DNA of 64,000 nt from Haloterrigena sp. H1. GTDB lineage: Archaea > Halobacteriota > Halobacteria > Halobacteriales > Natrialbaceae. The stretch covers positions 62,001 through 126,000 of the forward strand of contig NZ_SMZK01000004.1 in the NCBI RefSeq assembly GCF_005938085.1, read 5' to 3'. Positions 43,803-64,000 of the stretch are shown in pieces. The notes below the pieces were generated by a model. The model was given only the letters and a program-made list of their open reading frames with translations. It was not told the DNA's origin and did no database searches. The translations under genes were made by a program, and so were the position numbers. How positions within the stretch are numbered: position 1 is the first letter of the stretch; the number at the start of each line of letters is the position of its first letter.

Positions 43803-44609
43803 TCAGTCGTCGGTCGAATGTTTTGCTTCAACCTCCTCTCTAATATCCCGTATCGTATCCGCCAATTCGTCCTTCGTTTGGCCTTCGTACGGGAATACGG
43901 AGCCCGACTTTCTGAATCGCTTGATGGTTTCATCTACCACTTTTGTATCTGCCAAGCCTCCCTCTTCGTCATCTTTTTCGTCATCATCCGGTTCGTCGTA
44001 GAGTACTTCTAACAACGCTCTCACTGCGGGTTTGTACCGTGCCATAGGTGTGTCGAAAACCAACAACGAGAACCGACGTTTGCTAAGAGCACGCCGAGTT
44101 GGCTCGTAATCGATACTCCCATCGGATTTCTCAACACACGTTAGTTCTGCGATCCACCAGGCGCGTTCGAAAGTACTAGCTTTACCGTCTAGCGCTCTAG
44201 CTTGTGTCCAGAATTTCTCCTTCATCGCAGAGACGCTGTTGAACGCCCATCGGTGGTGAACGAACCACGGGTAGTAGAGCATCGAAAATGCGCTCCAAAG
44301 GCCCGAATCAGCTGCGTCTGACCGACTGATGTCCACGTTACGGTGAACGGCGATTGCTGTCTCTGGATCTGAATCTCCTGTTTGAGGTGTAGTTTCCGAC
44401 TTAATCTCTCTGAGTTGATTGTCCAAGGTACCCAAGTCAGCCGTCAGATCAGTTTCAACGACCTGGTCTTGAACCTCCGAGTCTGGAATGCTGTCGTAAT
44501 CTCCTTTGAGGAACTCATCGTACTTGCTCAACAAGCTCTGTGCACCATTACGGAGGCGGACGAGTTCCTGCCCGTCCGTCAACTCGGCGTCTGGATTCCA
44601 ACCCGTCAT
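43803..44609 (-). CDS. cassette 1, gene C (possibly DUF6339)
   Basis: 268 aa, soluble and helical. Shared with the two other C proteins are DSGLWSAFSMLYYPWFVHHR, AMKEKFWTQARALDG, a WWIAEL block and a FDTPMARYKPAVRALLEV block. The pattern recalls DUF6339; I am not certain of that name. It has an acidic insert (YDEPDDDEKDDEEGG) and lacks the SNALHRL variant of the other two. The start overlaps the stop of gene B by 4 nt. Function unknown; it always travels with A and B here. Confidence 0.7.
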   Translation of the reverse strand: MTGWNPDAELTDGQELVRLRNGAQSLLSKYDEFLKGDYDSIPDSEVQDQVVETDLTADLGTLDNQLREIKSETTPQTGDSDPETAIAVHRNVDISRSDAADSGLWSAFSMLYYPWFVHHRWAFNSVSAMKEKFWTQARALDGKASTFERAWWIAELTCVEKSDGSIDYEPTRRALSKRRFSLLVFDTPMARYKPAVRALLEVLYDEPDDDEKDDEEGGLADTKVVDETIKRFRKSGSVFPYEGQTKDELADTIRDIREEVEAKHSTDD

Positions 44610-45676
44610 CGGTCTCCGATCCTCCTTGCGTGATTGTCGAGCTGTTGAGCGGGATCTAGTAGTCCCTGAATTGCCTGTTCGATCCGTTCTGTTGCTGTCA
44701 TTGGACTTTCTTCTAATTCCTCTTTTAGAAACTTTGCAGCCTTTCTCGGAGACACGTCTCGGTCCGCGTAAAGATGATCAGTCAACATCTCAAATACAGC
44801 CGGTTGCCACTCTGGGGTCCACTCCGCCGCATCGGGGTCGTACTCGTGAGCGGCAACTTCCGTCATTCGTGCCCAGACAGACGACATCACTTGATCCCAG
44901 ATGAGTTCGGCAGTGAGATCGTCGTACCTACCTTCGCCATTCCAGACTATATCTACGACTTGATCGTGGTCTTCATTGAAGTAGAGGACGGGGTTGTTCG
45001 GATCTCGTTTCAGATCGAGGTAGTACATACGATCGGCAGGTGGGAAGACCGTATCCTCGTCCTCGTTCTCCTCTTCGAACGAGGTGCGTTCCACTTGTAG
45101 CACGTCGTCGCTACCGGCCTCTTCGTCTTCGACGGTAATCCGACACCGGCGGCCATCGGACAAGAGAGCGCCGGGTTCTGTGGCGTAGTCGTGGGTTCTA
45201 CCTAATCCGAGTGATCGTTCTTCTTCTTCGGTGAGTCGATCGGACCGCAAGAGGTAGGGATTGAGATCGACACGACGGGCGATGGTCTCCGAAGAGATGG
45301 TCAACGTGTCGCTGACCGTTCCGGCGCTGATTCCGTCGCCCAGCACCGTCCCTGCTCTAGTGTAGGTGTCTACGCAGTGCCCTGCTACGACGACTTTCGC
45401 AGGATGACTAGCGGACGCACCCTCTGCAGTACTTTCGTCTGCTTCTGGAAGCACTTCCTCAAGGAGATCGGCAGGAACCTCTACGGAAAGGCTAAACTCG
45501 ATCGTAGACCACCCGCTGTATTCGGTGAGGTCTAAATTCGAATCGTCGTCTGCCTTGACTGTCTCGTCGCCATCGACGGAGAAGTCCTTGATACGGAGCT
45601 CGAGTTCCCCCAGATTACATCGATGCGGGAACGTATCGTACTTCAGCGATCGGTTGAGCCTGAGTGTGCGGCTCAT
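44606..45676 (-). CDS. cassette 1, gene B (unknown)
   Basis: 356 aa. The N-terminal half is beta-rich (STIEFSLSVEVPADLLEEVL). The C-terminal half has the block conserved in all three B proteins: MYYLDLKRDPNNPVLYFNED, followed by a helical region with WDQVMSSVWARM. No enzyme motif is seen. Because it sits between the GHKL ATPase and gene C with 2-4 nt spacing, it is probably a subunit of the same complex. It starts MSRTLRLNRSLKYD, and the other B proteins start with a similar R..SLPfsY motif. Confidence 0.7.
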   Translation of the reverse strand: MSRTLRLNRSLKYDTFPHRCNLGELELRIKDFSVDGDETVKADDDSNLDLTEYSGWSTIEFSLSVEVPADLLEEVLPEADESTAEGASASHPAKVVVAGHCVDTYTRAGTVLGDGISAGTVSDTLTISSETIARRVDLNPYLLRSDRLTEEEERSLGLGRTHDYATEPGALLSDGRRCRITVEDEEAGSDDVLQVERTSFEEENEDEDTVFPPADRMYYLDLKRDPNNPVLYFNEDHDQVVDIVWNGEGRYDDLTAELIWDQVMSSVWARMTEVAAHEYDPDAAEWTPEWQPAVFEMLTDHLYADRDVSPRKAAKFLKEELEESPMTATERIEQAIQGLLDPAQQLDNHARRIGDR

Positions 45677-45678
45677 AG

Positions 45679-47688
45679 TTACTCACCCACCTCGACAGAC
45701 CCATCGACGAGTTTGAGCCGGGTCTTCGTCAACTCTCCTAATCGCGCTTCGACTCCGTCGAGTTGGGCTTCGATTTCAACCGTCGCGGATCTGACGTCAC
45801 CGACGGCCTGTATGTGACTCTTCTCGCCGTCCTCACTCGTCTCAGCTACCTTGATCTGCCCACTCCCATCTGCCACCTCTGCGTCGACGTCTTCTACGAT
45901 CACTGTATCTGCCTCCTTGTCGTCTTCAAACAGAGCGACTAGTTCGAACGTAGCTTTCCACTGCTCTATCGAACCATCGCTTATCGCCTTGCGGTCGGAG
46001 TTTGGACCGACAGAACCGGTGAATAGCCACTCGTTATCCGTGGGTGTGTCAGATATTTTCCACTCGAACAGTCGTGGGACACTGGGGGTTCTGGGTTCTT
46101 TAGGACCGTTGTCGGTCCGCAAGTCCGAACGGGTCCGGGGTAGAATATCTCGTTCGGGGCGGGTCATGGATCCGGACCGATCCGACTGACTGTACAGGAG
46201 CGTTGAGAGAGCATTTCGAAGCGTCTTCGTGGTGAGTGCCTCTGCTGACCCTACACAGCCACTCTCGTATTTGGCTTTGAGTTCGTCGTTCTTTTTCCCG
46301 TACCAACGGTCGTGCATGGGTGGTTCGGCCATCGCGAGGAAATCGTCGATAGCCTCGTCGGATGACGAATGAGGCTCTCCTGGGGGTGTGCGTGCTTTCC
46401 CTGCGGCTAACAGTGCGTGATACTTCCCAGAGTGCCCGATATGGTGGCCCGGCTTGTACTTCACCACCATTCCTGGGCCCCTGAACATGGCAATCTCCCC
46501 AATTCGTTCAGAAGGGGCCCCATCTGTATCACTCGGGTTGGCTTTTCGTGCTGCTACCGTGACGTGTCCATCAGTTGGAGTGGGATACTCTTCGTCCTCT
46601 TCGCACTCATCCTCCTTTTTACTCTCAATTTTGTACTCTTGATCGGTCTTCGCAACAGTCCCCGGCCCATTGAAAGAGTCGGGTGCATCCTGAATCCGAT
46701 CGAAGCACTCGACGAACGGCGAAACGAGGTCGTTGTCTCGTATCGTCTCTTTGGTCAGTCTCGTACCTTCACCGCACATATCGATCTCCACTTGGAGGTT
46801 ACCCCCGCGGATAGCCGGCCAAAAGTACTCTGCCGTCGCCTGCGTGAATTCGTCACACAATTCGGTCGGCGATGGTTGATCGTCCATCGCTGGATCGGAC
46901 GGGTCACGGAAGCCTGGGATCATGATCGTTGTTCCGTTCGCGTCGGGACGTGCCATCCCCAGATCCTCCGCGAGCTCTTCGGCACAACCGTTCCAAATCG
47001 ACTCGGGCCGCTTTAGTTCGTCACGTTGGAATCCCGATTCGGAGCCAAACCAGCCGTCGTTCGCGTAACACTCTCCCTCTGACAGCTCGTGAGTCGGGAT
47101 GAAACACCGACCGACGAGTCGAGGCGAGGTCTGACCTGGCCGTTCCTCTGCCAGCGTCGAATTGAACAGCACCGTCTGGAACCCAGACGCGACCCAGAGC
47201 AACGTACTCCCGAGACCGTGTCGACCGCCGGTACTTCCGCCCTTGTTACTCGCACCGGGGTCACGGATCAATGCCGCATAATCCGAGTCCTGATCCTCTT
47301 CGTTCCCTTGAATCCCTTTAGCGTTCTTCTCCTCAATCGTGAGTGTCCGAAAGGTTCCGCCGTTATCCAAATACTCCACGTAGTCGGTGAGGCCGTGTCC
47401 ATCCTGATCATCCCCACCTGCTTTGACGTGGTCGTATAGATCGTTCCACTGTATGGCCTCGTCGAAAGCCGTTCTATCGTCGAACTCACGTAGGCGAAAC
47501 GTTACCTCTACCGGTTCACTCGGGTCGTCACGTGCATCTACCGAGTTTTGGAGGATCTCACGAACGAACGTCTCCAAATCACGACTGAACGTCTTCTTTT
47601 GAATCAGCCCTTGCTTCCGCGTGCGTCCACACGGAACGTCTTCGAACCACCACACGGGACTAGAATCCGTATCGCTACCTGTAGACAC
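45679..47688 (-). CDS. cassette 1, gene A: GHKL-type ATPase
   Basis: About 669 aa. ATP-binding motifs: the N-box in TFVREILQNSVDAR (Glu and Asn conserved), a motif-II-like segment in TLTIEEKNAKGIQG and the Gly-rich lid in TGGRHGLGSTLLWV. This is the HSP90/MutL/MORC-type fold, which dimerises on ATP binding and clamps DNA or a client. The motif-II Asp of the two other copies is Glu here, so ATP use may differ. The GTG at 47688 was chosen because a TATA box (TCTATATT) lies about 28 nt upstream; the open frame begins with TTG at 47712. The long C-terminal part has no known domain. Confidence 0.8.
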   Translation of the reverse strand: MSTGSDTDSSPVWWFEDVPCGRTRKQGLIQKKTFSRDLETFVREILQNSVDARDDPSEPVEVTFRLREFDDRTAFDEAIQWNDLYDHVKAGGDDQDGHGLTDYVEYLDNGGTFRTLTIEEKNAKGIQGNEEDQDSDYAALIRDPGASNKGGSTGGRHGLGSTLLWVASGFQTVLFNSTLAEERPGQTSPRLVGRCFIPTHELSEGECYANDGWFGSESGFQRDELKRPESIWNGCAEELAEDLGMARPDANGTTIMIPGFRDPSDPAMDDQPSPTELCDEFTQATAEYFWPAIRGGNLQVEIDMCGEGTRLTKETIRDNDLVSPFVECFDRIQDAPDSFNGPGTVAKTDQEYKIESKKEDECEEDEEYPTPTDGHVTVAARKANPSDTDGAPSERIGEIAMFRGPGMVVKYKPGHHIGHSGKYHALLAAGKARTPPGEPHSSSDEAIDDFLAMAEPPMHDRWYGKKNDELKAKYESGCVGSAEALTTKTLRNALSTLLYSQSDRSGSMTRPERDILPRTRSDLRTDNGPKEPRTPSVPRLFEWKISDTPTDNEWLFTGSVGPNSDRKAISDGSIEQWKATFELVALFEDDKEADTVIVEDVDAEVADGSGQIKVAETSEDGEKSHIQAVGDVRSATVEIEAQLDGVEARLGELTKTRLKLVDGSVEVGE

Positions 47689-47838
47689 TACAGGATATGA
47701 CCATTGATACAATATAGAATTTCGGGTTAGTTGGTAGTATGAATATCCATTCAGAAATGTGGCATCTTCATACGAGTCGGCGATTCTTATCGAGAAACCA
47801 CCACCAACTGTGCAGCAATGTTGTAGTAACCTTCGTTT

Positions 47839-50531: not shown

Positions 50532-50696
50532 CCACTACTTATTGGATAAAGAACATATTTAAACTACTGCCACTGGAGTGGAATTAAAAGACACAGTCTC
50601 GACTACCAGAATAGCCCCAACGGCCAACTGATCGGTCTCGAGGCGTTCAGTCGAATCGGGGTCAGGTCACCAATCCTCGATCGAGCCCTCCCCTCG

Positions 50697-51662: not shown

Positions 51663-51694
51663 CCGTATTCTACTTGCCTTTCACATTCTGTACT

Positions 51695-51729
51695 CATTCG
51701 TGGTCTTGAGGCACACGAGTGTGCGCCTC
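51695..51729. repeat. second copy of the SWIM-gene promoter palindrome
   Basis: ATGAGTACA (minus strand, from 51697) and GAGGCACACGAGTGTGCGCC + TC at 51708-51729 repeat the start and operator region at 41618-41651. The frame begun by this ATG is not that of mcrC. The segment marks a recombination joint that cut the 5' end of mcrC, or donated a promoter to it. Confidence 0.6.
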
Positions 51730-51819
51730 GGCCCACTTTGGCGCAGAAAAACTGAGTCCTTGTTCGAACAACACCGTCAGTAGATTGAGCGGAAGAAGAT
51801 CTCGGTTGTTGTCTGGTTC

Positions 51820-52515
51820 TTACTCGTGTGCTTCGGTTATCAGTCGCTGAATCAACTCTCGAGCCTCCCGTTCTGAGAGACCTTCAAGCTGGACATTGGT
51901 CAACGCATGGTTGAATCGGCGTGTCACCTCCTCAATAACCTGGGACCGTTCATCGGCAAGCTCATCACACATTGCGATAACCGCGGGACGATATCGCGCG
52001 AACCATCGGTCAAACACTTTATTGACCATCGTCTGATTTGCGAACACCGCGTCCGTAATCTCGTATTCGTCATCGCGAGCAGTTAACTCCGCGATCCACC
52101 ACAAGCGGTGAAGAGCGTTCGAATAGAGGTCAGATCCGGCACCGAGGAACTTCTCCCGCATCGCCTCTTCTGATCGATATTCCCACCGATGACGAACGAG
52201 ATCGGGGTAGCGGACGATAGCCAGCCAATGCCACAAGCCCGGGTCGCCCGCTGTTCGGCGCGTGATGTGGAGATTGCGATGAATTTCTTCGGCGAGCGCC
52301 CCGTCAATCGCCGTATCGTACTCGGAGTACTCTTCAAGTACTGAATCGACGACCTCGTCAACGCGGCCGAGATTCGCTTTCGGCTCGCCTGGCATCGGCT
52401 CGATATACTCCGCTACGTCGTCAGCATTGAGCGTTGTCTCCCCTTTGAGGAAGGACTGACCAACCAAGCGCCGCCCCTCTTCGGTCAACCGATGAAGTGT
52501 TTCTGACTCACTCAT
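51820..52515 (-). CDS. cassette 2, gene C (possibly DUF6339)
   Basis: 231 aa, helical. It shares with the other C proteins HRNLHITRRTAGDPGLWHWL, then VRYPDLVRHRWEYRSEEAMR, SNALHRLWWIAELTARDD and FDRWFARYRPAVIAM. It is closer to the cassette 3 protein than to that of cassette 1. The ATG follows the stop of gene B by one base. The conserved Arg, His and Trp positions suggest a binding surface, but no catalytic triad is evident. Confidence 0.7.
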   Translation of the reverse strand: MSESETLHRLTEEGRRLVGQSFLKGETTLNADDVAEYIEPMPGEPKANLGRVDEVVDSVLEEYSEYDTAIDGALAEEIHRNLHITRRTAGDPGLWHWLAIVRYPDLVRHRWEYRSEEAMREKFLGAGSDLYSNALHRLWWIAELTARDDEYEITDAVFANQTMVNKVFDRWFARYRPAVIAMCDELADERSQVIEEVTRRFNHALTNVQLEGLSEREARELIQRLITEAHE

Positions 52516-52516
52516 T

Positions 52517-53551
52517 CTAAATCTGGAGGCCTTCCTCCATGAGGTTAATCAACTGGTCGCGCGGATTGATGAACTCCTGAAGTTCACCGTCAAGCCGCTG
52601 CATCATGTACGGTAATGTCTCCGAACTCTCGAGATCTTCTCGCAGTCTGTGTGTCGCTTCTTCTAAATCATCGATATCGTACATGTTACGTGCGAATGTC
52701 TTCAATACCGTCTGTTGCCACTCGTACTCAACGTCTCCATCGCTATCGATGGCAGCTCCGGCTCGAATTAGGAGTTGCATCCAGACACCGTAACTGACCT
52801 GGTCAAGGATGACGTCTCGCATTCGCGCTTCTGCTCCGACCGATCCGCGGCTCTGCAGGACTTCTGTGATTCGGGGGTGATCGGCGTTGATCCAGAGCTT
52901 CGGACGCTTCTCGTTCCTGAAGTCAAGGTAATAGAGTTTGTCGCCATCCGGTAAGTGTGTCGTCTGCGAGAAATTTACGCGTTCCCCGTCGATCGCTGGT
53001 GGTTCTTCGTCTTCCGGCCGGTCGACAACAATGCTGTAGATCGTACCGCTTGCGACACGGAAGTTCTTCCGTGCCGCGTACTTGCCGTCGCCATCTCGTC
53101 TGGTGGTGCGAACGAGATACGGGCGGAGCTCTACCGTCCCGCGGACCTTCTCTTTCCGAATTGGTATCTCAACGTCGTACGTTCCTGGCGTGGTTGGCGC
53201 GTCGGAGACGACAACGCGATCACGGTAGATAGTTTCGTGACACCGGATTGTGACGTAGAGTTTCGCCGGTGGGCAATCTCGTTCCTCATCAGGAAACACC
53301 GCATCAACAGTCTCTTCTGAGATGTAGAGTTGGCCCTCGAGTGCCACCGTCTGCCAGTCAGCTACCGCATCGTCTGCCGGCGGCGGAAGTTCGCCAGCAA
53401 GATCGATCTCGGTCTGCCCTGGTTTCAGGTCTAGCGGAGCTGGATCTTGGTCGTCGATCGAGTACGTCTCCAACGAGAACTGTACGCCTTTCTCACGATA
53501 GCTGAATGGAAGCGAGGTACTGCGGTAGCGTTGTGAACGGGTCATGGTCAT
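52517..53551 (-). CDS. cassette 2, gene B (unknown)
   Basis: 344 aa. It starts MTMTRSQRYRSTSLPFSYRE. The first 200 residues are beta-rich with a repeated V-E-L/R-P-Y-L-V-R motif (TVELRPYLVRTTRRDGDG). The conserved block LYYLDFRNEKRPKLWINADH is followed by the helical part MRDVILDQVSYGVWMQLLIR. In all three B proteins this block is followed about 40 residues later by an Arg/Asp-rich D-V..D-x-V segment and a W. Its start overlaps the stop of gene A. No function can be given from sequence alone. Confidence 0.7.
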   Translation of the reverse strand: MTMTRSQRYRSTSLPFSYREKGVQFSLETYSIDDQDPAPLDLKPGQTEIDLAGELPPPADDAVADWQTVALEGQLYISEETVDAVFPDEERDCPPAKLYVTIRCHETIYRDRVVVSDAPTTPGTYDVEIPIRKEKVRGTVELRPYLVRTTRRDGDGKYAARKNFRVASGTIYSIVVDRPEDEEPPAIDGERVNFSQTTHLPDGDKLYYLDFRNEKRPKLWINADHPRITEVLQSRGSVGAEARMRDVILDQVSYGVWMQLLIRAGAAIDSDGDVEYEWQQTVLKTFARNMYDIDDLEEATHRLREDLESSETLPYMMQRLDGELQEFINPRDQLINLMEEGLQI

Positions 53552-55446
53552 TTCTCCGCGGGCGTCTCGAGCTCCGCCCGGATCTCGAGTTGTGTTTCGC
53601 CGACATCACCACTTAGCAAGTCTCCATCGCCAGTTGAATGCGATCGCCCCTCGAACGTGGCATTGGTGACGTGCTCGTTGGCGTTTATGCGCACTATCCC
53701 GTCTTCGAAGGCTGTCGTCACACCGTCGACATCGACGTCCAACTCCTCAACCGGCACGACGTCGTACCTGGAACCATCTTCCCCGATTCCCGTAAGTGAG
53801 AGCTCGGCCGACCAGCCGTCGAACTCCTCGGCAAGAACCGAGATCCGTCCGGAGAACGACCACCGATCGCCGGTGAATCGCGATGAGCTATCGATCTCGA
53901 ACACTGGTTCCGCTGAGGACGCCGTCGATCGTGGCACGCCGTCACCATGAATCGGGAAGCGGTTCAAGACGTTATCGGAGAGCGTGTCCGTGCTCGTACT
54001 CTTCGCGATCAGATGGCGGAGGCCGTCTCGGACCGTCCCGAACATGTCGTCAAGGGCGGTTCGGAATCCTCGTTGGTACTGCTTGCGGAGGTTCTCCGTC
54101 GACTCCCACTCGTCGTGCTCGGGTGGCTCGGCAAACCGGAGGAATCGATCGATTTCCAGATCCCCTTCCGTGAGATTGTGTTCGAGGCGTGCTTCCCCGG
54201 TTGCGAGCACGCCATGGAAGTTCCGGTCGGAGTACGCGACTCGACTTTGGTCGTAGTACTTCACGACCATTCCGGCCCCACGGAAGAGCGCGATGGTGTT
54301 GAGGTACGTGTCGTCGTCGGCTGGTGATGCCAGTCGGGTCGCCAGGCGCACCGATCCGTCCGGTGTTTCCGTCCCGTCAGCACGTGGGGGCAACCGTACC
54401 GGGATATCGAGTCCAGCGACATCTCCGGGGTCGTCAAGCGATTCGGAGTCCGTGAACCGTTGGGCGTAACACTCGACAAACGGTCGAATCGCCGGGACAC
54501 TGTTCACATCGGCTTTGAGGGTCTCCTCGGCGGTTTCGACAGTAACTTTCAGGTCACCACGGTAGATGGCCGGCCAGAAGTACTTCACCGAGGCCTCGAC
54601 GAATTCTTGGGCGAGCTCGTCAATGTCGGGGCGGTCGTCCCGTGTCGGATCTCGGAATTCAACGACCATGGCGCTTGTTCCGCTGGTCGCAGGGCGATCA
54701 ACGTGCAGTCGGTCGGCAAGTCGGGCTGCTTCATCACCCCAGAGCGATTCCGGCCGTGGTCCATCCTCCGTCTCGGTCGGGTGACAGAGCCATCCGGCTC
54801 CCTGATAAGTTGTATTATCACCCCGGACTTCGTGAGTAGGGAGCTTTGACCGGGCGATGAGTCGTGGCGACTCGTCTGCCTGCGTGCCGTGGTCGAGATA
54901 CGAATTAAATATGACTGTTGATGTTCCTGAGAACGTCCAGAGAACGGATTTCCCGAGTCCGTATGAACCGCCTGCGGTATCCTCCTGTTTGCTACTATAA
55001 AGTTCGTCGCGAACGAGCGCGGCGTAGTTCGAATCCTCCTCCCATGCCCCGGAGAGACCAGTCGTGTTCCGATCTTCGACGACCAGCAACCGAAGTTCTG
55101 CTTCCGGGTTGTGCATGCGCTCGAGCACGCGATCGTATCCACGTCCCTGGTCTGAGTGTGCGATCGACTCTAGCCGGTGGTTGAGATCGTCGCCCCAGCC
55201 AAGCGCGTCCAGAAATTCGTCTTTCTCGTCGCCGGTGAGTGTAATGAACCGGAACGTCACCTCGACTGGATCGCCATTTGAGAGACCCTGGTCGTTCGCG
55301 TTCTGTAGCACCTCCCGAACGAATGCTTCTGCGTCATGGTCAACTGCGTGTTTTGTCGGGTCGTCTCCGTACCGTGGTGCTCCTGGTCCACCGCTGAAGA
55401 AGTACCACTCAGCTGCGTCAAATAGTTGATCTCGCCTCTGATCCAT
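53548..55446 (-). CDS. cassette 2, gene A: GHKL-type ATPase
   Basis: 632 aa. N-box AFVREVLQNANDQGLSNGD, motif II LRLLVVEDRNTTGLSGAWEE with the expected Asp, lid AGGSYGLGKSVLWTFSG. Residues 150-330 look like the second (transducer-like) domain, and the C-terminal 200 are beta-rich and of unknown fold. It is 30-40 per cent similar by eye to the cassette 3 protein and less to cassette 1. It is divergent from the cytosine methyltransferase gene, with 215 bp between, where both promoters must lie. Confidence 0.82.
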   Translation of the reverse strand: MDQRRDQLFDAAEWYFFSGGPGAPRYGDDPTKHAVDHDAEAFVREVLQNANDQGLSNGDPVEVTFRFITLTGDEKDEFLDALGWGDDLNHRLESIAHSDQGRGYDRVLERMHNPEAELRLLVVEDRNTTGLSGAWEEDSNYAALVRDELYSSKQEDTAGGSYGLGKSVLWTFSGTSTVIFNSYLDHGTQADESPRLIARSKLPTHEVRGDNTTYQGAGWLCHPTETEDGPRPESLWGDEAARLADRLHVDRPATSGTSAMVVEFRDPTRDDRPDIDELAQEFVEASVKYFWPAIYRGDLKVTVETAEETLKADVNSVPAIRPFVECYAQRFTDSESLDDPGDVAGLDIPVRLPPRADGTETPDGSVRLATRLASPADDDTYLNTIALFRGAGMVVKYYDQSRVAYSDRNFHGVLATGEARLEHNLTEGDLEIDRFLRFAEPPEHDEWESTENLRKQYQRGFRTALDDMFGTVRDGLRHLIAKSTSTDTLSDNVLNRFPIHGDGVPRSTASSAEPVFEIDSSSRFTGDRWSFSGRISVLAEEFDGWSAELSLTGIGEDGSRYDVVPVEELDVDVDGVTTAFEDGIVRINANEHVTNATFEGRSHSTGDGDLLSGDVGETQLEIRAELETPAEK

Positions 55447-55630
55447 ATCAAAAACCGGTATATTTGTACAACATTAAGTGCACCTAATCAGTATTACTAT
55501 TACGAGCTTTGTACGCTCACAATCACCATGATGGGAGGGTTATATTGATTTTCTCATTCCCATCTCTATTCAGATAGTTGTCCGCTTCCGGGGCCGCTGT
55601 GGCTGACTGGTTGTCGTCTCGTCTGCGAAT

Positions 55631-55640
55631 ACTTATATGA
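55631..55640 (+). promoter_or_regulatory. TATA box of the cytosine methyltransferase gene
   Basis: ACTTATATGA is centred about 27 nt upstream of the ATG at 55662, as expected for a leaderless haloarchaeal transcript. The intergenic space to the divergent cassette 2 is AT-rich (55450-55560) and probably carries the opposite promoter as well. Confidence 0.6.
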
Positions 55641-55661
55641 CGTTGCGAATGAGGAAGGCAT

Positions 55662-56774
55662 ATGAAAATCACGGCGGTCGATCTTTTCTGCGGCGCTGGG
55701 GGCCTTAGTTACGGCCTTCAGGAAGCTGGCATCTCGGTTGTTAAAGGTGTTGATCGCGACCCAGACTGCAAGCATGCGTACAAACAGAATATTGAGGGGG
55801 ATTACGTCCACACTGATGTCTTGCCGCTCTCACAGGATCCCGAGCGTGTCGCCCGTATGTTTCCCTGGGACTCCGACTTAGACGTGCTCGCTGCCTGTGC
55901 CCCTTGTCAGCCGTACTCTACGATGAGTCATTCCAAAGGCAAGAGCCACGAAGATCATCAAAAATGGGGACTTCTTAACGATGTCAAGAAGATCGTTGAC
56001 TATGTCGAACCTGATGTCGTTGTCACTGAGAACGTCCTCCAGGTCCGCAAAGATGACGTCTATACAGAGTTTATTGACCATTTAGATAACCTCGGCTACC
56101 ACGTGAATAGCGACGAGAACAAGAAAGTCTACTGCCCCGAATACGATATCCCTCAGAACCGGAAACGCTGGGTTGTCATGGCGTCCAAACGCGGTCCGAT
56201 TGCCCTTCCTGATCCCCCCATCCAGGATCCAGATAACTACCCTACTGTCAAGGAGACCATTGACTATCTTCCGCCACTTGCTGCTGGTGACGTTGATCCC
56301 GATCTTGACATACACAGATCTCGACAACTCTCGGACAAAAACCTTGAGCGAATCCGCCATATGGAACCCGGCGGCGACTGGCACCTCTGGGAAGAGAAAG
56401 ACCTTGACCACCTCCTCGCCGACTGTCACAAGAAGGCGAGCGGCCGCTCATACACTGCACCCTACAGCCGAATGCGGCCCGATGAGCCCGCACCCACGAT
56501 AACAACCCAATTTTACAACTACGGCAGCGGTCGCTTCGGCCACTACGACACCGATCAAGATCGTGCTCTTTCTCTCCTCGAGGGTGCCCTCCTCCAGACG
56601 TTCCCGGAAGACTACGACTTTTATGACAACTGGGATGATGTCGGCGTCAGCAATCTCGGCCGCCTCATCGGCAACGCCGTTCCCCCACGCCTCGGCGAAT
56701 ACATCGGCAAAGGCATTCTTGACCATGTCAACGCCACTGCCACCGCAACTGAAACTACCGTTGCTGACGACTGA
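55662..56774 (+). CDS. DNA (cytosine-5) methyltransferase
   Basis: 370 aa, with all main motifs in order: I (AVDLFCGAGGLSYGL, SAM binding), IV (AACAPCQPYSTMSH, catalytic Cys), VI (VVVTENVLQV), VIII (YDIPQNRKRWVVMAS), then a target-recognition region of about 110 residues, IX and X (GRLIGNAVPPRLGEYI). It transfers a methyl group to C5 of cytosine in a short site that cannot be read from the sequence. With the downstream genes on the same strand it looks like the modification arm of a restriction system. The C-terminal tail is Thr/Ala-rich. Confidence 0.92.
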   Translation: MKITAVDLFCGAGGLSYGLQEAGISVVKGVDRDPDCKHAYKQNIEGDYVHTDVLPLSQDPERVARMFPWDSDLDVLAACAPCQPYSTMSHSKGKSHEDHQKWGLLNDVKKIVDYVEPDVVVTENVLQVRKDDVYTEFIDHLDNLGYHVNSDENKKVYCPEYDIPQNRKRWVVMASKRGPIALPDPPIQDPDNYPTVKETIDYLPPLAAGDVDPDLDIHRSRQLSDKNLERIRHMEPGGDWHLWEEKDLDHLLADCHKKASGRSYTAPYSRMRPDEPAPTITTQFYNYGSGRFGHYDTDQDRALSLLEGALLQTFPEDYDFYDNWDDVGVSNLGRLIGNAVPPRLGEYIGKGILDHVNATATATETTVADD

Positions 56775-56990
56775 CTAATCTTTTGAAGTGATCTCATTCC
56801 CTACCACTACAGTATTTTACTCACCTTTCTCTCAGCCGCCTGGCCACCCACTTTCGGATAGGGACATTTATTCAGCGCCATACCAAACTGGCCCTACAGT
56901 GAATATCTATATCGACCAACTTCCGGTTCACGCTACCGAATCTCCTTCTGTCGGTAGCTCGGTCGCCGAACCGTCTGCGGGTGGTCATCT
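56775..56990 (+). other. spacer between the two methyltransferase-like genes
   Basis: 216 bp without a convincing gene. A short frame (56788-56994) is Pro/Ser-rich with low coding character. An AT-containing stretch at 56805-56830 may hold a promoter for the second gene. Confidence 0.4.
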
Positions 56991-57767
56991 GTGAGTTTTC
57001 CCTTCACCGAGGATCGCGACGAACCCTTGATCCTCCACTGCTTTGCCGACTACGGCACAGAGTGCGAGGTTCTCAACGACTTCGGTACCGTTGTCCGCGT
57101 CGGCATTGATCCTCGAGACACGAACGATAGCGCGCCGATTAAAGCGGATGCCCACATTGAGGAGAAAGACTGGGGCCTTCCGTTCAAAGAGGATGTCACC
57201 TTTGATCTGGGCGTTTTCCACCCCGTCTGCTCAGCGTGGGCAGCAACAACGAGTATCTCTGGCGATCCCGAGGACCACGATAACATGATCCCGAGCGCAC
57301 GCCAGATCGCCGAAAAATATTGCGAGCACCACATTATTGAGAACGTCCCACGCGCCCCGCTCGAAGATCCGGTCGTGCTGAACGGCCGGATGTTTGGCCT
57401 CCCGATCGAGTACGAACGCGGCTTCGAAACGTCGTTCGACGTACCTCACCCGCCTCGTGAACGCCTCCTCCTCACGAGTGATGGCCCGTCCGAGAATGCG
57501 GAGACATCTTCGTTTTTCTTCTCCGAACGATCAAAGGAGTGGTGGGCCGCTGCGAAAAACTACGCCTCTGGTCCTTATCCCAAGGCCCACCTTGCAAAAA
57601 ACGTTATCCCCGCCCCATACATTTACTATCTCCTTCGTGCGTGGATTATGACCTACGAGGACGAAAGCGGCATCTCTGAAGACCGTGTTGATTATTCGAA
57701 CTACGACAAGGAGATGACAAACAAACGCCGCGCCGAGGCGAACCGCCAACTCGGCGAGTTCGAATAG
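56991..57767 (+). CDS. cytosine-methyltransferase-like protein with degenerate motifs
   Basis: 258 aa, starting at GTG. The resemblance to C5-methyltransferases lies in GVFHPVCSAWAATTSIS (motif IV with Cys), IIENVPRAPLEDPVVLNGRM (motif VI ENV and the following P..DPV.L.GxMFgL) and PPRERLLLTSDG (motif VIII-like). Motif I is not recognisable (ILHCFADYGTECEVLNDFGT in place of DLFxGxGG), and the usual PC is VC. It may have lost catalysis and serve as a site-recognition partner, or it may be an unusual active enzyme of the type seen in phages. Its position after the true methyltransferase supports a joint role. Confidence 0.65.
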   Translation: MSFPFTEDRDEPLILHCFADYGTECEVLNDFGTVVRVGIDPRDTNDSAPIKADAHIEEKDWGLPFKEDVTFDLGVFHPVCSAWAATTSISGDPEDHDNMIPSARQIAEKYCEHHIIENVPRAPLEDPVVLNGRMFGLPIEYERGFETSFDVPHPPRERLLLTSDGPSENAETSSFFFSERSKEWWAAAKNYASGPYPKAHLAKNVIPAPYIYYLLRAWIMTYEDESGISEDRVDYSNYDKEMTNKRRAEANRQLGEFE

Positions 57768-57855
57768 CACGCCATCATTCTCGTATCTCTTATGTCGTAC
57801 TTTGTCGAGTCGACACAATCAAATAATCAGATGTCTCGAGTTACCGTATACGCTG

Positions 57856-59388
57856 ATGGGTGGGGACTCGAATCGACTCTATCAAGATAGAGATAGGATT
57901 CGATCGCACGCGGGTGATCCCTTTGCCGGTACACCACTCCCTCGTGCTATCGTGCAAGATGTCGCCGCACAGTACGACGTCCCTGCTTCCCACGCCGCGC
58001 ACATCCTCCGCGATTTCGAGACAACACCAGAGCTCGCTCCGCTCGAAACCCTCGTCACTGGCTTTGACCCAACTCCCGTTGGCGTTGACGAGGGTGGTCA
58101 CCTCTACCTCCGCGCCGATGCCGACCCGTACTGGGATGTGGTCGCCGAGGAACTCGGGCTTACCGCGGTCGGCCGTGATGTGATCGCCACTGCCCACGAC
58201 CGACACGTCAGCAATGCCACGCCTGAATCGCTCACCGATTGTGGTCCCGGCTTTGTCGTTTCCTGTCCCGAGTTTCCCGCTGCCGCGATTGACGACATCC
58301 ACACCCTTCTCGAGCGAATGTCGGTGTCGAGCCGGCGAGCGACCGTGTGGGCACTCGACCATCAAGCCCGTAGTCTGGCGGCGATCGCAAACATTCTCTC
58401 GATTTCCGAGCCCCTCGTGCGGACCGATTTAGCGGCCGTCAACCGAGCAACTCGGCGCGTTGTCGATGCCACGAGAGCACTCGATATCCCACACTGCCAT
58501 CTAACCCATCGCGTTGTGGATCCACTCTCCCCGGACTGGCTGGGGGCTAATTGGTCGCCGTGGCTCTCATTACACGACCGCGACCAGCTCCTTGACGACC
58601 TTCCACACGACCCCGGTGTGTATCGTGTTCGCCACACGGCTATCCCTGGACTCTTGTACATCGGGGAAACGGGAGCAGACGGTGGTATTCGAAGTCGAGT
58701 CGGGCTCGGCCTCGCAGATGGACTTACCGCGCAGAACTGTCCCGATGGCGGGAATCACGACGCGACGACCGGCCTCTGGCAGATCGCAACCGCACTCGAT
58801 GGCAATTTGGAAGTGTCTGTTGCGACCCCACCGATCGCTGCCAACCGACGCCATCGCCGAGCGCTCGAGGCGACACTTATTGCAGTATGCCGACGCGAGA
58901 TCGGGTGGACACCGAGCGTTCAGCTCAACCGGACCCCGCTCGCAGACACACCCTCTCCTGGTGTCGACCCCTGTGCCGTTCTGGAATCCAGCTCGGAAGA
59001 GAACTCGTATCCGGTGCCAAGTTGGGCTGGGTGGCGAGCAGCGACGAACCCGGGCTGGATGGGACTCAAGTGGACGGAACCTCGTCCGCTCGCCGACCGT
59101 GCAATAATCGAGATGCCCGATGCCTGCGCGTTCCGTGTTTGGACACGTCAAGACAATACCCTACGGTGGGAGCGACGCCTCACCTACATCGGAACGACCG
59201 AAACACCGACGAGCCGGTTGTTTTCACTAGAAAGCACCTACGGCTCAGAGATGCTTTTTTCTATTGCGCCACTTCCCGATTTGAGTACGGAGTCGGCCAA
59301 GCGGTCGCGGGAACGTTCCGAGATTCGGTATGACCTTCTCGGTGCTCACTATCTCACGACTGGCCATCCACCGACCGATCAGTTTTGA
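57856..59388 (+). CDS. GIY-YIG domain protein, probable endonuclease of cassette 3
   Basis: 510 aa from the ATG at 57856; TTG at 57802 is the alternative. The N-terminal 230 residues have a helix-turn-helix-like part (ARSLAAIANILSISEPLVRT). GIY-YIG core near residues 265-380: PGVYRVRHTAIPGLLYIGET, Arg in GIRSRVG, Glu in ALEATLIAVCRREIG and Asn in SVQLNRT. The last 110 residues (LTYIGTTETPTSRLFSLEST, then RSEIRYDLLGAHYLTTGHPP) look like a second, decayed GIY-YIG unit. GIY-YIG nucleases act in restriction systems such as Eco29kI. Its place between methyltransferases and the GHKL cassette suggests the cleaving part. Confidence 0.72.
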   Translation: MGGDSNRLYQDRDRIRSHAGDPFAGTPLPRAIVQDVAAQYDVPASHAAHILRDFETTPELAPLETLVTGFDPTPVGVDEGGHLYLRADADPYWDVVAEELGLTAVGRDVIATAHDRHVSNATPESLTDCGPGFVVSCPEFPAAAIDDIHTLLERMSVSSRRATVWALDHQARSLAAIANILSISEPLVRTDLAAVNRATRRVVDATRALDIPHCHLTHRVVDPLSPDWLGANWSPWLSLHDRDQLLDDLPHDPGVYRVRHTAIPGLLYIGETGADGGIRSRVGLGLADGLTAQNCPDGGNHDATTGLWQIATALDGNLEVSVATPPIAANRRHRRALEATLIAVCRREIGWTPSVQLNRTPLADTPSPGVDPCAVLESSSEENSYPVPSWAGWRAATNPGWMGLKWTEPRPLADRAIIEMPDACAFRVWTRQDNTLRWERRLTYIGTTETPTSRLFSLESTYGSEMLFSIAPLPDLSTESAKRSRERSEIRYDLLGAHYLTTGHPPTDQF

Positions 59389-59561
59389 TGCCGGTCTGAC
59401 ACTGCGCCGCTGGCTCGTTACGCCGTCTGCTAATTCCCTATCTATATGAATAACAAATATTTATAATATGGAAGCCTCGACTGTCCCATTATGACTAATA
59501 TCGCATATGTTCATCAGTTTTGGAAGGGGATCGATTCTCCAACACATCGATGGAGGGGTCA

Positions 59562-61451
59562 ATGAGCGGGACGTGGGGATTTACGACATCGCGACCGACT
59601 GACGCTCGGTATGGCGACGATGTCGCAAAATACGCGATGTCGAATGGCGAACAGGGCCTGAAAACGTTCGTTCGGGAGGTCCTCCAGAACTCGAACGACG
59701 CCCGCCTGGATAACGACGATCCTGCACAGGTCACCTTCCGCCTCGAGACTCTCGAAGGCGACGATCTCAAAGCCTATTTGAACGCCCTGGATATCAACAC
59801 CTGGTCCGACCACGCATCTCTTGCCGCTGACACGGAAAGCGGTGAACACATCTCCGAAGCAATGGCGCGAATCGAGGATGAAAAATCGCTCCGCGTCCTC
59901 ACTATCGAAGATCAGAATACCCAGGGGCTCCTCGGTGCCGAGACTGCTGACCAGTCTAACTTCACCGCTCTCGTCCGTGACGTTCTCTTCAGTAGCAAAT
60001 CCGGTGACACATCTGGTGGGAGCTACGGCCTCGGCAAAGCTGTTCTCTGGCTGTATTCCGGGCTCTCGATGGTGCTGTTCAACTCCTCGCTCAGTGAACC
60101 CACTCCTCGAGACGACTCCCCACGGCTTATCGGGCGCACCCGTCTCCCGACTCACAAGTCGAGCGACGGCGACACCGTTTACCAAGGCCACGGCTGGTTC
60201 GGTAACGTTGATGCCGACGAAAGTGGTGCACGCCCCGAATCTCTCTGGGGTGACGAGGCCAGACAGTTCGCTGATGACCTCAAACTCAGCCGCCCAGATA
60301 GTCCCGGAACGAGCATTCAAGTTGTCGACTTCCGCGTTCCCACTGCCGAAGAACGCCTTGCCGATGAAGAACTCGCAGACAAAATCACTGAAAAGGCAAT
60401 TGAGTGGTTCTGGCCAGCGATCTACCGTGGAAATCTTGAGGTCACCGTCGAGACCGACACCGAGACGAAATCGGCGAGTATAGCAGAGTACCCTCGGTAC
60501 ACTCCGTTCACTACATGTCTCAATGACCGCACTGCTGCCACTGACGAACTCACCGAGGCCGGTGATGTCGTTGAGAAACCGATCACACTGACCATTCCCG
60601 CAAAAACGGACGAGAGTGGATCGACCGAGGGAGATCTCGACTTGCTCGTCCGCCGTGCGAACCCGGACGAGAGGTATCAGCGCAACAGCGTTGCGTTCGT
60701 CCGTGGTGCCGGAATGGTTGTCGAATACTACGACCGCGACAAAGTCGTAGTCGGGAACGAAGACTTCCACGCTGTTCTCCTCGGCGGCCGCGCTCGTCCT
60801 TGGGGCACTGGTGATAACCCTTCGGACGTTGACGATGTCGTTGAAGAATTTCTCACCACTGCAGAACCACCTCAGCACGACGAGTGGCGACGGACCGAAT
60901 CCCTCGCTAACACGTACAAGCAAGGGTTTCGAACTGCCGTTGAAGGAATCAAACCGGATGTTACCGACACGCTCCGCGAACTTGTTGCCCCGAACGTCGA
61001 TCGCGGCTCGACCGGTCCCGAAAGACTCGGGAACCGCTTCAAGATCGGGAGCAAACGCCGGAGCGGCTCCACCAGCCGCGAGTCTCCCAGTAGTCAGCGT
61101 GTCACCGGCGACACCGACATCGCCTTTGACGAGACGTACGACCACTGGCAATTCGAAGGTGAAGTCGAACCCTTGAGCGACCGGAACGAAATCCGGCAAG
61201 TAACTGTCTCGCTCGTTCGAATGGCCGAAGAGCGTGCGACTAACGACCGGCTCCCTGTGCGTAATATCTCTTCGGATACGACCGGGGTCTCCATCTCGCT
61301 CCCCGACGAAAACGGCGTGCAGGTCGGTCGCCTTGACCCGCCACCGGGGACGACCTCGCTCACCTTCGAGGGTACGTCTGAAGAAGACATGCGTCGCGTC
61401 GAAACCCGACTCAAAGTATCAGTTGCCGTTGCCGAACGGAGGGATAACTGA
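59562..61451 (+). CDS. cassette 3, gene A: GHKL-type ATPase
   Basis: 629 aa from the ATG at 59562, which follows GGAGGGG at good spacing (59550 and 59520 are alternatives). N-box TFVREVLQNSNDARLDNDDP, motif II LRVLTIEDQNTQGLLGAETA, lid SGGSYGLGKAVLWLYSG. The following WFWPAIYRGNLEVTVETDTE and AFVRGAGMVVEYYDRDKVVV blocks are shared by all three A proteins. Known prokaryotic relatives of this fold (MutL/MORC-like) occur in restriction-modification loci. The stop overlaps the ATG of gene B (TGATG). Confidence 0.84.
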   Translation: MSGTWGFTTSRPTDARYGDDVAKYAMSNGEQGLKTFVREVLQNSNDARLDNDDPAQVTFRLETLEGDDLKAYLNALDINTWSDHASLAADTESGEHISEAMARIEDEKSLRVLTIEDQNTQGLLGAETADQSNFTALVRDVLFSSKSGDTSGGSYGLGKAVLWLYSGLSMVLFNSSLSEPTPRDDSPRLIGRTRLPTHKSSDGDTVYQGHGWFGNVDADESGARPESLWGDEARQFADDLKLSRPDSPGTSIQVVDFRVPTAEERLADEELADKITEKAIEWFWPAIYRGNLEVTVETDTETKSASIAEYPRYTPFTTCLNDRTAATDELTEAGDVVEKPITLTIPAKTDESGSTEGDLDLLVRRANPDERYQRNSVAFVRGAGMVVEYYDRDKVVVGNEDFHAVLLGGRARPWGTGDNPSDVDDVVEEFLTTAEPPQHDEWRRTESLANTYKQGFRTAVEGIKPDVTDTLRELVAPNVDRGSTGPERLGNRFKIGSKRRSGSTSRESPSSQRVTGDTDIAFDETYDHWQFEGEVEPLSDRNEIRQVTVSLVRMAEERATNDRLPVRNISSDTTGVSISLPDENGVQVGRLDPPPGTTSLTFEGTSEEDMRRVETRLKVSVAVAERRDN

Positions 61452-62533
61452 TGGCTGTTCTGGACAACGAACTTGACGACAAATCAGAGGACGAATCAGA
61501 GGACGAATCAGAGGACGAACAACTCCAGACGGGGAGTCTCGTCACCCAGTCTCTCCCGCACAGCTACGCCCGTGATGCCCTTGACTTCACGGTCGAGACG
61601 ATTCAACTGGACGGTGCTGATCTCGGCGACCGTGGCGAGCTCGATGAATCTGCCCGCTACCTTTCGCTCGTCGACGAAGCTGGCTGGACTACCCTCACGC
61701 TCGAAGGGACGATCACGCTCGACATGGAGACGGTTAAAGAGGTCTTCTCGACGACCGAGTGGGATGCCCCATCGGGTCGGCTTGCGCTCGTGAAAACGAA
61801 CCCTCTCGCAATCAGCCGCGACCGAACGATCCTTTCCGACCCACCTGTCGAGCCCGACACTTACTCGTTCAGCATCGACATCCACCGTGACGACCACCGA
61901 GGAACCGTCGTACTCGAACCGCACCTTGTCCGGGCGAGCGAACGCGGCCCCGGGGCGTCGAACTGTGCTTCGAAAGTTGGCTCTCGGCTCGCAAACGGCA
62001 TCTCGTGGACGCTTGAGCTTGACGAACGCACGGACGGCGGCGGACTACTCATGCCGATTATCGAGGATTTCAGTGATACTGACCGTCTTCCCGACGATCA
62101 ACATATTCACCACTTGAGTCTTGACGAGCCGCGTAACCCTCAGCTCTACTTGAACCGCGAACACCCACAGGTTGTGAAAGTTCTCGAAAACAGTGGGTCC
62201 ACAGGCGGTCCACCTCGGCTTCGTGATGTACTCTATGATTATATTGAGCACTCCGTATGGACTCAACTGCTTATACAGACTGCTCGTGATACCGATCCAG
62301 ACACTGGCGAAACCCAATACAGCTGGCAAGATGACGTTCTAGACCTCTTCTTAGATGACCTTTATCCCGATCATGAGGAGGAGGACGCTGCGATCCAGTT
62401 CGCGACCGATGTTCGAAGTATCGAAGACCTTCCCGCGCTCGTCCAGAACGTCGAACACGCTGTCCACCAGCGCTACGACATCCCGTCCGACACAACCAAA
62501 CTGATCGAAGAGGCGATCCAGAATGACAACTAA
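61451..62533 (+). CDS. cassette 3, gene B (unknown), with an acidic tandem repeat
   Basis: 360 aa. Residues 9-24 are a DESE repeat coded by three exact copies of a 12-bp unit (TCAGAGGACGAA, about 61483-61519), which could vary in number by slippage. Then the shared features follow: GWTTLTLEGTITLDMETVKE, the V-L-E-P-H-L-V-R motif, the IHHLSLDEPRNPQLYLNREH block and the helical RDVLYDYIEHSVWTQLLIQT. The last two blocks align with those of the B proteins of cassettes 1 and 2. The last 11 bases overlap gene C. Confidence 0.7.
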   Translation: MAVLDNELDDKSEDESEDESEDEQLQTGSLVTQSLPHSYARDALDFTVETIQLDGADLGDRGELDESARYLSLVDEAGWTTLTLEGTITLDMETVKEVFSTTEWDAPSGRLALVKTNPLAISRDRTILSDPPVEPDTYSFSIDIHRDDHRGTVVLEPHLVRASERGPGASNCASKVGSRLANGISWTLELDERTDGGGLLMPIIEDFSDTDRLPDDQHIHHLSLDEPRNPQLYLNREHPQVVKVLENSGSTGGPPRLRDVLYDYIEHSVWTQLLIQTARDTDPDTGETQYSWQDDVLDLFLDDLYPDHEEEDAAIQFATDVRSIEDLPALVQNVEHAVHQRYDIPSDTTKLIEEAIQNDN

Positions 62534-63311
62534 ACTGTACCACCTCCAGAGCGCTGCTCACCCGCTTGTCGACAACAGGGTTCTGAGCGGAGAGCGGACA
62601 CTCACTGAGGATGATCTCCGTCCTTACCTCACGCCGCTCGGTCGCTCGGTCGACCTTGCGCCTGTTGACGACTGTATTGATGAGATACGCAATGCCGATA
62701 ATATTGATCCCCAGGACAGCGATATTGATGCGGAACTCGCCCCTACCCTTCACCGTACACTCGATCTGACCCGTTATGAGGCCGCGGACGCCGGGCTCTG
62801 GCACTACCTCTGTCTCGTCCGGTTCCCCGAGTTCGTCCACTACCGCTGGGACCACGTTTTTGATCCCGATAGCCCTGGGAACATGGAGGAGAAGTTCTTG
62901 AAAGGTGGGAGTGACATCTACTCAAATGCCCTCCATCGTCTCTGGTGGGCTGCCGAACTCACGTATGAGGATGGCGCTTCTGGTGATCCCGTCGACCGAG
63001 ATTACGAGCGCACCCGGCGCGTCCTCGGCTTCCAGGAACTCGCCAACGACATTCTTGACCACGACTTCGCCCGATACAAACCTGTTACGCACGCCTGCGC
63101 AGACCTCCTCTGTCACGAGGCCCTTGATGCGCTCAAAGACGATGATGTGTATGCAGACCCTCCGTCAAACAGCCATATCGTCAGCCGCACTACGACTCTT
63201 CTCCGCGAAGAGCTTACCGTCCGGCGCGTTGAGGCGATGGATAACGATGATATCGTGGCAACAGTTGAGGATCTCCGTGACTACGTCATGCGCGGCGAAG
63301 ACGAACGGTAG
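62523..63311 (+). CDS. cassette 3, gene C (possibly DUF6339)
   Basis: 262 aa. Conserved blocks: HRTLDLTRYEAADAGLWHYL, VRFPEFVHYRWDHVFDPDSP, NMEEKFLKGGSDIYSNALHR with LWWAAELTYED, and LDHDFARYKPVTHACADL. Its start lies within gene B (ATGACAACTAA), so the two are translationally coupled. It is nearest to the cassette 2 protein. No signal or membrane segment, so it is presumably cytoplasmic together with A and B. Confidence 0.7.
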   Translation: MTTKLYHLQSAAHPLVDNRVLSGERTLTEDDLRPYLTPLGRSVDLAPVDDCIDEIRNADNIDPQDSDIDAELAPTLHRTLDLTRYEAADAGLWHYLCLVRFPEFVHYRWDHVFDPDSPGNMEEKFLKGGSDIYSNALHRLWWAAELTYEDGASGDPVDRDYERTRRVLGFQELANDILDHDFARYKPVTHACADLLCHEALDALKDDDVYADPPSNSHIVSRTTTLLREELTVRRVEAMDNDDIVATVEDLRDYVMRGEDER

Positions 63312-63607
63312 CACGCCCGTATTGTCTCCCGAACCTTTCACGATCTGGTTTGGGTTTGACAGCGTGTTTCGGTATAGACGACAGTGTCTTTCTGACTCAT
63401 TGACGAAGCAGTTTGTCAAATCTGTCTTTTTAACAATCTTGTCCCCTTCAGCGAGACGAATACTCAGAAGCGAACTGGGCCATGAGTGTTCGGCAGGCGA
63501 CGGTCCTGATTCCCTAATGTATTTTTCCGGAAGCCGACGGCGAATTTGAGCTCACAAGCGTTGGTTGTGAACTGGTGGTATCGATAAAAAGGTGCGGGTC
63601 GTTTGTC
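63312..63607 (+). other. spacer between cassette 3 and the glycosylase gene, with promoter
   Basis: 296 bp without a gene. CGATAAAAAGG near 63574-63584 is a good TATA box about 30 nt before a GTG at 63608. A T-rich run (CTGTCTTTTTAAC, about 63422) may end the cassette 3 transcript. Confidence 0.45.
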
Positions 63608-64000
63608 GTGTCTTTCATTGCTTGCAAACCCGTACATCGGAACGTGAGCCAGCAGAAGGTGATTGAGGAATTTCGATTAGGGCTACTCCAATGGGCCGAA
63701 GACAACCTGCGGTCTTTCGCCTGGCGAGAAACATCGGACCCCTACGAAATCCTTGTGGCAGAAATCCTTCTCCAGAAAACCGCTGCTGAGAAAGTCGAAC
63801 CGATCTATAATGAGGTCATAGAAACGTATCCCACGATAACGGCACTAGCAGAAGCGGATCAAAATGAGCTTGCCGAGATAATCTATTCGCTCGGATTTCA
63901 GAATCAGCGAAGCCAAGCACTGATAACGATCGGACAGACTCTTCGCGATACTGGGATTCCCGCTGATGAAGCACAGCTTCGTGATCTTCCTTACGTCGGG
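63608..64000 (+). CDS. HhH-GPD DNA glycosylase (MutY/Mig-like), incomplete at the window edge
   Basis: The first 131 codons of a base-excision glycosylase. Recognisable blocks are FAWRETSDPYEILVAEILLQ with KTAAEKVEP, then FPT-like TYPTITALAEADQNELAEII, YSLGFQNQRSQAL and the start of the hairpin, LRDLPYVG. The W-R-x-T-x-D-P-Y and E-I-L-L-x-(R/K)-T boxes are those of the Mig-type G/T-mismatch glycosylases known from archaeal plasmids, where they repair deaminated 5-methylcytosine beside a methyltransferase gene. The catalytic Asp and any Fe-S cluster lie beyond the edge. GTG at 63644 is an alternative start. Confidence 0.75.
   Translation, partial: MSFIACKPVHRNVSQQKVIEEFRLGLLQWAEDNLRSFAWRETSDPYEILVAEILLQKTAAEKVEPIYNEVIETYPTITALAEADQNELAEIIYSLGFQNQRSQALITIGQTLRDTGIPADEAQLRDLPYVG

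Follow-up and report, generated by a model that had tools for sequence, protein, structure and literature searches.

How is a cytosine methyltransferase put to use in a locus that also encodes GHKL-like ATPases, a GIY-YIG protein and a mismatch glycosylase, and where does the unit to which it belongs begin? The question is raised by a stretch of 64,000 nt from Haloterrigena sp. H1 (the window, in what follows). From 55662 to 64288, just past the end of the window, stand seven genes on the + strand: M5C for a C5-cytosine methyltransferase, M2 for a short protein resembling methyltransferases, GIY for a GIY-YIG protein, three genes that we call A3-B3-C3 (cassette 3) and Mig for a Mig-type glycosylase. 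A preliminary description had read them as a complete-looking modification, restriction and repair unit starting at 55662. Profile searches and open reading frames bear out the seven genes and their shared strand, and the gene list needs mending in three respects only: its final gene extends beyond the window, a second cassette (A2-B2-C2, cassette 2) is part of the unit, and the A protein lacks a Pfam GHKL match. The boundary does not hold. The constant haloarchaeal pair is M5C together with the divergent cassette 2, and M2-GIY-A3-B3-C3 is an add-on, present only where that core is present. A start at 55662 is wrong for the unit, as it shuts out cassette 2, the constant partner of M5C on the other side of the divergent promoter region. 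Since related sets recur across haloarchaea and in some bacteria, the locus probably represents a little-known relative of restriction-modification immunity.

A conserved core and its add-on

The evidence for this architecture comes from a survey of 322 haloarchaeal genomes, which are related to one another, with 24 loci compared for gene order. M5C occurs in 28 of the 322 genomes and A in 26, both being found in 25; the co-occurrence gives a Fisher value of 7e-33, which is nominal as the sampled genomes are related. The sole genome with A only is an assembly in 720 contigs. Among the three genomes with M5C only, two have the gene beside a GHKL protein of another type and one beside the DISARM genes DrmA and DrmB. 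A2-B2-C2 adjoins M5C and diverges from it in about 20 of the 24 loci, and the usual order reads C2-B2-A2 as seen from the left, all pointing left, followed by a rightward series of M5C, optionally Mig, optionally an extra cassette or other genes, and then M2, GIY, A3, B3 and C3. This right-hand module (M2 to C3) is often missing from haloarchaeal loci. Wherever the assembly allows, an A protein of the A3 class (at least 74%) is accompanied by one of the A2 class in the same genome's locus, and paralogous A-B-C cassettes number up to three or four per locus. The order M2-GIY-A3-B3-C3 is repeated in about ten other genomes, which argues that the seven-gene arrangement is not due to chance.

The genes of the locus are the following.

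55662..56774, + strand: M5C, C5-cytosine DNA methyltransferase (PF00145, E 3e-45; PADLOC DrmMII model PDLC02651, 705 bits, full length)
56991..57767, + strand: M2, short (258-aa) viral-type cytosine methyltransferase-like protein (HPVC and ENxP motifs; tblastn relatives)
57856..59388, + strand: GIY, N-terminal domain of about 240 aa followed by a C-terminal GIY-YIG domain (invariant residues, nine orthologues)
59520..61451, conserved start nearer 59562, + strand: A3, GHKL-like (paraMORC-type) ATPase of cassette 3, judged from motifs (PADLOC PDC-M33A, 9e-37)
61451..62533, + strand: B3, predicted immunoglobulin-like beta-sandwich with a helical tail (modelled on B2)
62523..63311, + strand: C3, DUF6339 all-helical protein, PDC-M33C (PF19866, 9e-21; PADLOC PDC-M33C, 5e-16; model of C2)
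63575..64288 (ending at position 126288 of the contig), alternative start about 63644, + strand: Mig-type T:G mismatch glycosylase (PF00730; 1kea, 2e-41)
53548..55446, - strand: A2, GHKL-like ATPase of cassette 2, divergent from M5C
52517..53551, - strand: B2, cassette 2
51820..52515, - strand: C2, DUF6339 family, cassette 2
43803..47712, - strand: cassette 1 (A1-B1-C1), a third paralogous A-B-C set, kept in like loci of G185, G101 and G013

Cassette 2 thus spans 51820-55446 on the - strand, A2 and M5C have a common upstream region of 215 bp, and the genes A3, B3 and C3 overlap one another. As a separate observation, a HATPase_c_3 protein of 660-690 aa (L109:10627-12645, L183, L184), which matches 'Type II restriction enzyme' models, also pairs with the M5C family, and does so in two genomes without A-B-C.

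Predicted methylation and its repair

M5C has motifs I (DLFCGAGG), IV (PCQPYS), VI (ENV), VIII (QNRKR) and X (GNAVPP), which place it in PF00145, and the motif residues are invariant across nine relatives. By its sequence, then, M5C is a complete, full-motif C5-cytosine methyltransferase. Its family is sharply bounded in the haloarchaeal survey, with members at 48-80% identity and then a gap down to 36% or less.

M2 matches no Pfam or PADLOC model. Its residues C80, E117 and N118 are invariant, and tblastn relates it to haloviral proteins at 30-42% identity, namely proteins of haloarchaeal pleomorphic viruses (His2, HRPV-9), and to a mycobacteriophage 'DNA cytosine methyltransferase' (32%, 1e-4). 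Given these relatives, the earlier label 'methyltransferase-like' is a fair one, although profile searches give it no confirmation. Relatedness to the pleomorphic virus proteins suggests that M2 may be of viral origin. The PDB matches of M2 were to protein A repeats and were dismissed as spurious.

The glycosylase, of 237 codons, has as its best solved relative Mig.Mth (1kea, 2e-41). In the alignment it keeps the Tyr126, Ala50, Leu187, Glu42 and catalytic Asp of Mig, where E. coli MutY carries Ser120, Val45 and Gln182 at the Mig-diagnostic positions (residue roles, PMC2714593); it also has the four cysteines of a 4Fe-4S cluster and no MutY C-terminal domain. These are the features that mark a Mig T:G mismatch glycosylase. 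The position of Mig varies among haloarchaeal loci. Of the 32 top-ranking Mig-like matches, about 26 lie within roughly 5 kb of a match to a 5-methylcytosine (m5C) methyltransferase, by a hand count in haloarchaea that includes related genomes. In bacteria, a Thermoleophilaceae locus combines A and B with an m5C methyltransferase and a gene that has a Vsr domain, and on a Deinococcus plasmid a methyltransferase and Vsr adjoin an A relative. Because some bacterial A-B-C loci with an m5C methyltransferase carry Vsr in place of Mig, the repair step is independently supported. Repair of deaminated m5C is well supported by context, and the proposal that m5C marks the DNA while its mutagenic cost is repaired gains from all three lines: the Mig residues, the haloarchaeal adjacency and the bacterial Vsr. 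Outside A-B-C loci, too, Mig-like glycosylases across haloarchaea adjoin other m5C methyltransferases or share one open frame with them (examples are G100, G040, G038, G051 and G055).

The A-B-C proteins

In the A proteins the N box reads EVLQNxxDA and the G2 box GGSYGLGK, and ExxxH is invariant, the combination of boxes and ExxxH that marks paraMORC2; the invariant residues are E45, N49, D52, G160, G163, G165, E440 and H444, and the G1 box (EDxNTxGL) is atypical. Judged by these motifs, A would be a GHKL-like ATPase of the paraMORC type. No homologues of A were found in viral contigs. The AlphaFold model of B2 (predicted local distance difference test, pLDDT, 87.5) is an immunoglobulin-like sandwich with a helical tail, for which fold searches (Foldseek, VIA) return generic beta-sandwiches at Z of about 8; B has no library match, and B3 in particular matches no PADLOC model. 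The model of C2 is all-helical (pLDDT 93.7), with no convincing fold match by the same searches. Neither the B nor the C model matches a nuclease fold, but a fold that goes unmatched may still harbour a nuclease.

The GIY-YIG protein

Conserved starts indicate that GIY probably begins at the ATG at 57856 and not at the listed TTG at 57802. Residues Y274, Y286, G288, R297/R299 and E356 are invariant in all nine orthologues and an Asn is kept in eight of the nine, which gives GIY the core of a GIY-YIG domain; it has no library match and no match in a profile search against the PDB, and its relatives carry the annotation 'GIY-YIG nuclease family'. The N-terminal domain is found in this locus type only. 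In the survey, full-length GIY is present in 11 of 11 genomes with an A3-class A and in none of the remaining genomes, and it occurs beside a more distant A3 in two further species, so that it is restricted to A3 loci in 13 of 13 cases and, on every unbroken contig, lies directly 5' of A3. The reading frames of M2 and GIY share 4 bp in three species, and in most others 64-88 bp separate them. Relatives of the C-terminal GIY-YIG half alone are common in haloarchaea, and all 12 of those sampled are near neither A-B-C nor a member of the M5C family. This coincidence of the N-terminal domain with the A3 context is the pattern expected of an adaptor to A3, which is what we take the domain possibly to be. 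It had been asked whether homologues of GIY might always lie away from methyltransferases; full-length GIY instead stands beside A3, and near the locus methyltransferase wherever the locus is contiguous.

Bacterial relatives

A-B-C together with an m5C methyltransferase is found in Opitutia, Pedosphaera, Chitinophagaceae/Bacteroidetes (where B and C are assigned by position) and on a Synechococcus plasmid. Full-length GIY is missing at every such bacterial locus seen, and no recognisable nuclease stands beside the operons of Opitutia, Pedosphaera and Synechococcus. Upstream of the Opitutia operon stands the gene for topoisomerase IV subunit A, and none of the proteins scanned there is nuclease-like. 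A distant A-B-C set (DUF6339) lies on a conjugative plasmid of Lactococcus lactis, with an AlwI-type restriction system on one side and AbiGI/AbiGII on the other.

Neighbouring genes and the assembly

Defence genes near A-B-C loci include DISARM, GmrSD, AlwI and AbiG. In the window, C2 adjoins a gene for an McrC-like protein (50697-51662, - strand), which matches the McrC model only from position 70; the proteins scanned around it include no McrB. It is possibly a remnant of an m5C-dependent restriction system that adjoins an m5C methyltransferase. Downstream (3') of the window, at about 135.1-136.9 kb of the contig, lies the gene for a protein of 598 aa that has GHKL-like motifs and whose end looks like a zinc peptidase. 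A search of the locus DNA against plasmids gave no near match. Positions 1-24792 of the contig repeat 111925-136729 (99.86%, 0 mismatches, 31 gaps), the latter including 49925-64000 of the window, and the copy at the contig start holds frameshifted, broken versions of the locus genes. This 24.8-kb duplication, with its extra broken gene copies, is probably an assembly artefact.

A model of the locus and its rivals

The reading that we favour, with about even confidence, is a modular, m5C-linked defence locus of the restriction-modification type, in which m5C marks self, Mig repairs, A-B-C inspects and GIY serves as the nuclease of cassette 3. M5C, perhaps with M2, would methylate the host DNA at its own site, and Mig would repair the T:G mismatches that arise from deaminated m5C. 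A-B-C would be an ATP-driven machine that examines DNA for the mark, with A as a paraMORC-type GHKL clamp, B as an immunoglobulin-like scaffold and C as a helical partner. Cassette 2 and M5C would be the core and cassette 3 the add-on, in which A3 would license GIY, by way of its extra N-terminal domain, to cut unmarked DNA. The catalytic residues of M5C, GIY and Mig are intact, and we infer that the function is defence. In favour of the model stand the co-occurrence of A with M5C, the confinement of full-length GIY to A3 loci, the bacterial operons with and without Vsr, the defence genes in the neighbourhood and the likeness to paraMORC2 in restriction-modification gene neighbourhoods.

Several results weigh against this model. 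Full-length GIY is missing from most haloarchaeal loci with A2 and M5C, and no other nuclease shared by those loci could be identified. Protein A gives no Pfam GHKL match in 15 haloarchaeal and 8 bacterial members and no significant GHKL match by hmmsearch with the PDB, and hhalign comparisons with MutL, TopoVI-B and a HATPase_c_3 protein are not significant, the N-box alone falling in register with MutL; since no profile match is significant, the GHKL identity of A rests on motifs. The hhalign comparison of M2 with M5C is not significant either. Finally, the two methyltransferases that neighbour the Lactococcus AlwI system look adenine-type and not m5C from their sequences, so that the m5C link is usual and not universal. 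The earlier suggestion that GIY cuts unmarked DNA with the help of a GHKL machine is plausible for cassette 3. As a general mechanism it is not supported, because most haloarchaeal and all bacterial loci seen that combine A-B-C with an m5C methyltransferase are without full-length GIY, and several bacterial sets show no recognisable nuclease.

The same bacterial operons favour the main rival, a serious though unlikely one, in which A-B-C acts without cutting: a MORC-like clamp, gated by m5C, would trap or compact unmethylated foreign DNA and silence it, with GIY an optional effector of cassette 3 only. The absence of a nuclease fold among the B and C matches and the GHKL-type motifs of A agree with such a mode of action, and C. 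elegans MORC-1 is reported to entrap and condense DNA (PMC8277788). However, the C-terminal part of A could hide an active site, C resembles no known fold, the gene for a nuclease might lie elsewhere, and the literature on prokaryotic MORC proteins expects nucleases (PMC2292703). Somewhat less probable again is its general form, that A-B-C and an m5C methyltransferase together make up a silencing system which is gated by methylation, needs no nuclease and works by GHKL/MORC-type entrapment of unmarked DNA, nucleases such as GIY-YIG having been added secondarily; if true, prokaryotes would have their own counterpart of MORC-based silencing.

The part played by GIY can also be doubted altogether. 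It might be a hitchhiking homing or mobile nuclease with no share in A-B-C function, in keeping with the stand-alone C-terminal relatives and with the fact that most A-B-C loci do without it, but the confinement of the full-length form to A3 loci, directly 5' of A3, its coupling to M2 in most loci and its conserved catalytic residues make this improbable. More doubtful still is that M5C is the DrmMII of a DISARM system, with the A-B-C cassettes as accessories. The 705-bit match points that way, as do DrmA/B/C beside cassette 2 in 10 of the 24 loci (with DrmE in some) and the M5C gene without A-B-C that adjoins DrmA and DrmB; against it, this genome has no DrmA, the other 14 loci and the bacterial operons have no DISARM nearby, and the two other M5C genes without A adjoin a different GHKL protein. 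We think least of a type IV-like arrangement, in which the methyltransferase would do no more than protect or tag, and the targets of A-B-C/GIY would be other modifications on invader DNA: GmrSD adjoins A-B-C in haloarchaea and Thermoleophilaceae, and the truncated McrC adjoins cassette 2, but neither is a constant partner and nothing recognised in A-B-C resembles a reader of modified bases.

Comparison with known systems

The locus gives a concrete conserved gene set to a candidate that was previously only a library label (PDC-M33), tied in haloarchaea to one m5C methyltransferase family, and shows that T:G repair, by Mig or Vsr, joined such sets more than once. The minimal operons without a recognisable nuclease raise the question of how a GHKL-type machine uses DNA methylation for defence. 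PADLOC labels M5C as DrmMII of DISARM (class 2), and in haloarchaea the two are often adjacent; of the DISARM core (DrmA/DrmB/DrmC), however, DrmA was looked for here, and a search that recovers it from Haloferax volcanii and Deinobacterium finds none in this genome. We therefore rejected membership of DISARM for this locus. A DrmMII-labelled methyltransferase can occur without DISARM, and an M5C-type methyltransferase alone is not to be used as evidence for it.

Mig resembles Mig.Mth of Methanobacterium thermoautotrophicum in its diagnostic residues, its iron-sulphur cysteines and the company of an m5C methyltransferase, and differs in having Lys for Arg47 and a partner system that includes A-B-C. 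VcSduA, a Shedu protein with an N-terminal GHKL ATPase for which GHKL control of a nuclease in phage defence has been proposed (PMC12137116), combines the ATPase and a PD-(D/E)XK nuclease in one chain and has no methyltransferase, whereas here the proteins are separate and the nuclease is of the GIY-YIG type.

The paraMORC-linked restriction-modification sets, whose paraMORC2 signature (ExxxH) and gene neighbourhoods were described by Iyer, Abhiman and Aravind in 2008 (PMC2292703), have in common with the present locus, paraMORC2 especially, a GHKL-like ATPase with ExxxH, a DNA cytosine methyltransferase, Vsr in bacteria and a sporadic spread; the family assignment of A follows from motifs and not from a significant profile match. 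The present sets differ in their constant B and C (DUF6339), their several cassettes, Mig in place of Vsr and a GIY-YIG protein with an extra domain. A superfamily II helicase stands in the neighbourhood of about 70% of MORC sets (PMC2292703); none is among the conserved genes here, but DrmA, the helicase of DISARM, is found next to many of the 24 loci. In PADLOC's candidate PDC-M33, A and C find their counterparts in PDC-M33A and PDC-M33C, unlike B, and we found no description of PDC-M33 or DUF6339 in the collection of papers searched. The closest known systems are thus the paraMORC-linked restriction-modification sets and PADLOC's uncharacterised PDC-M33.

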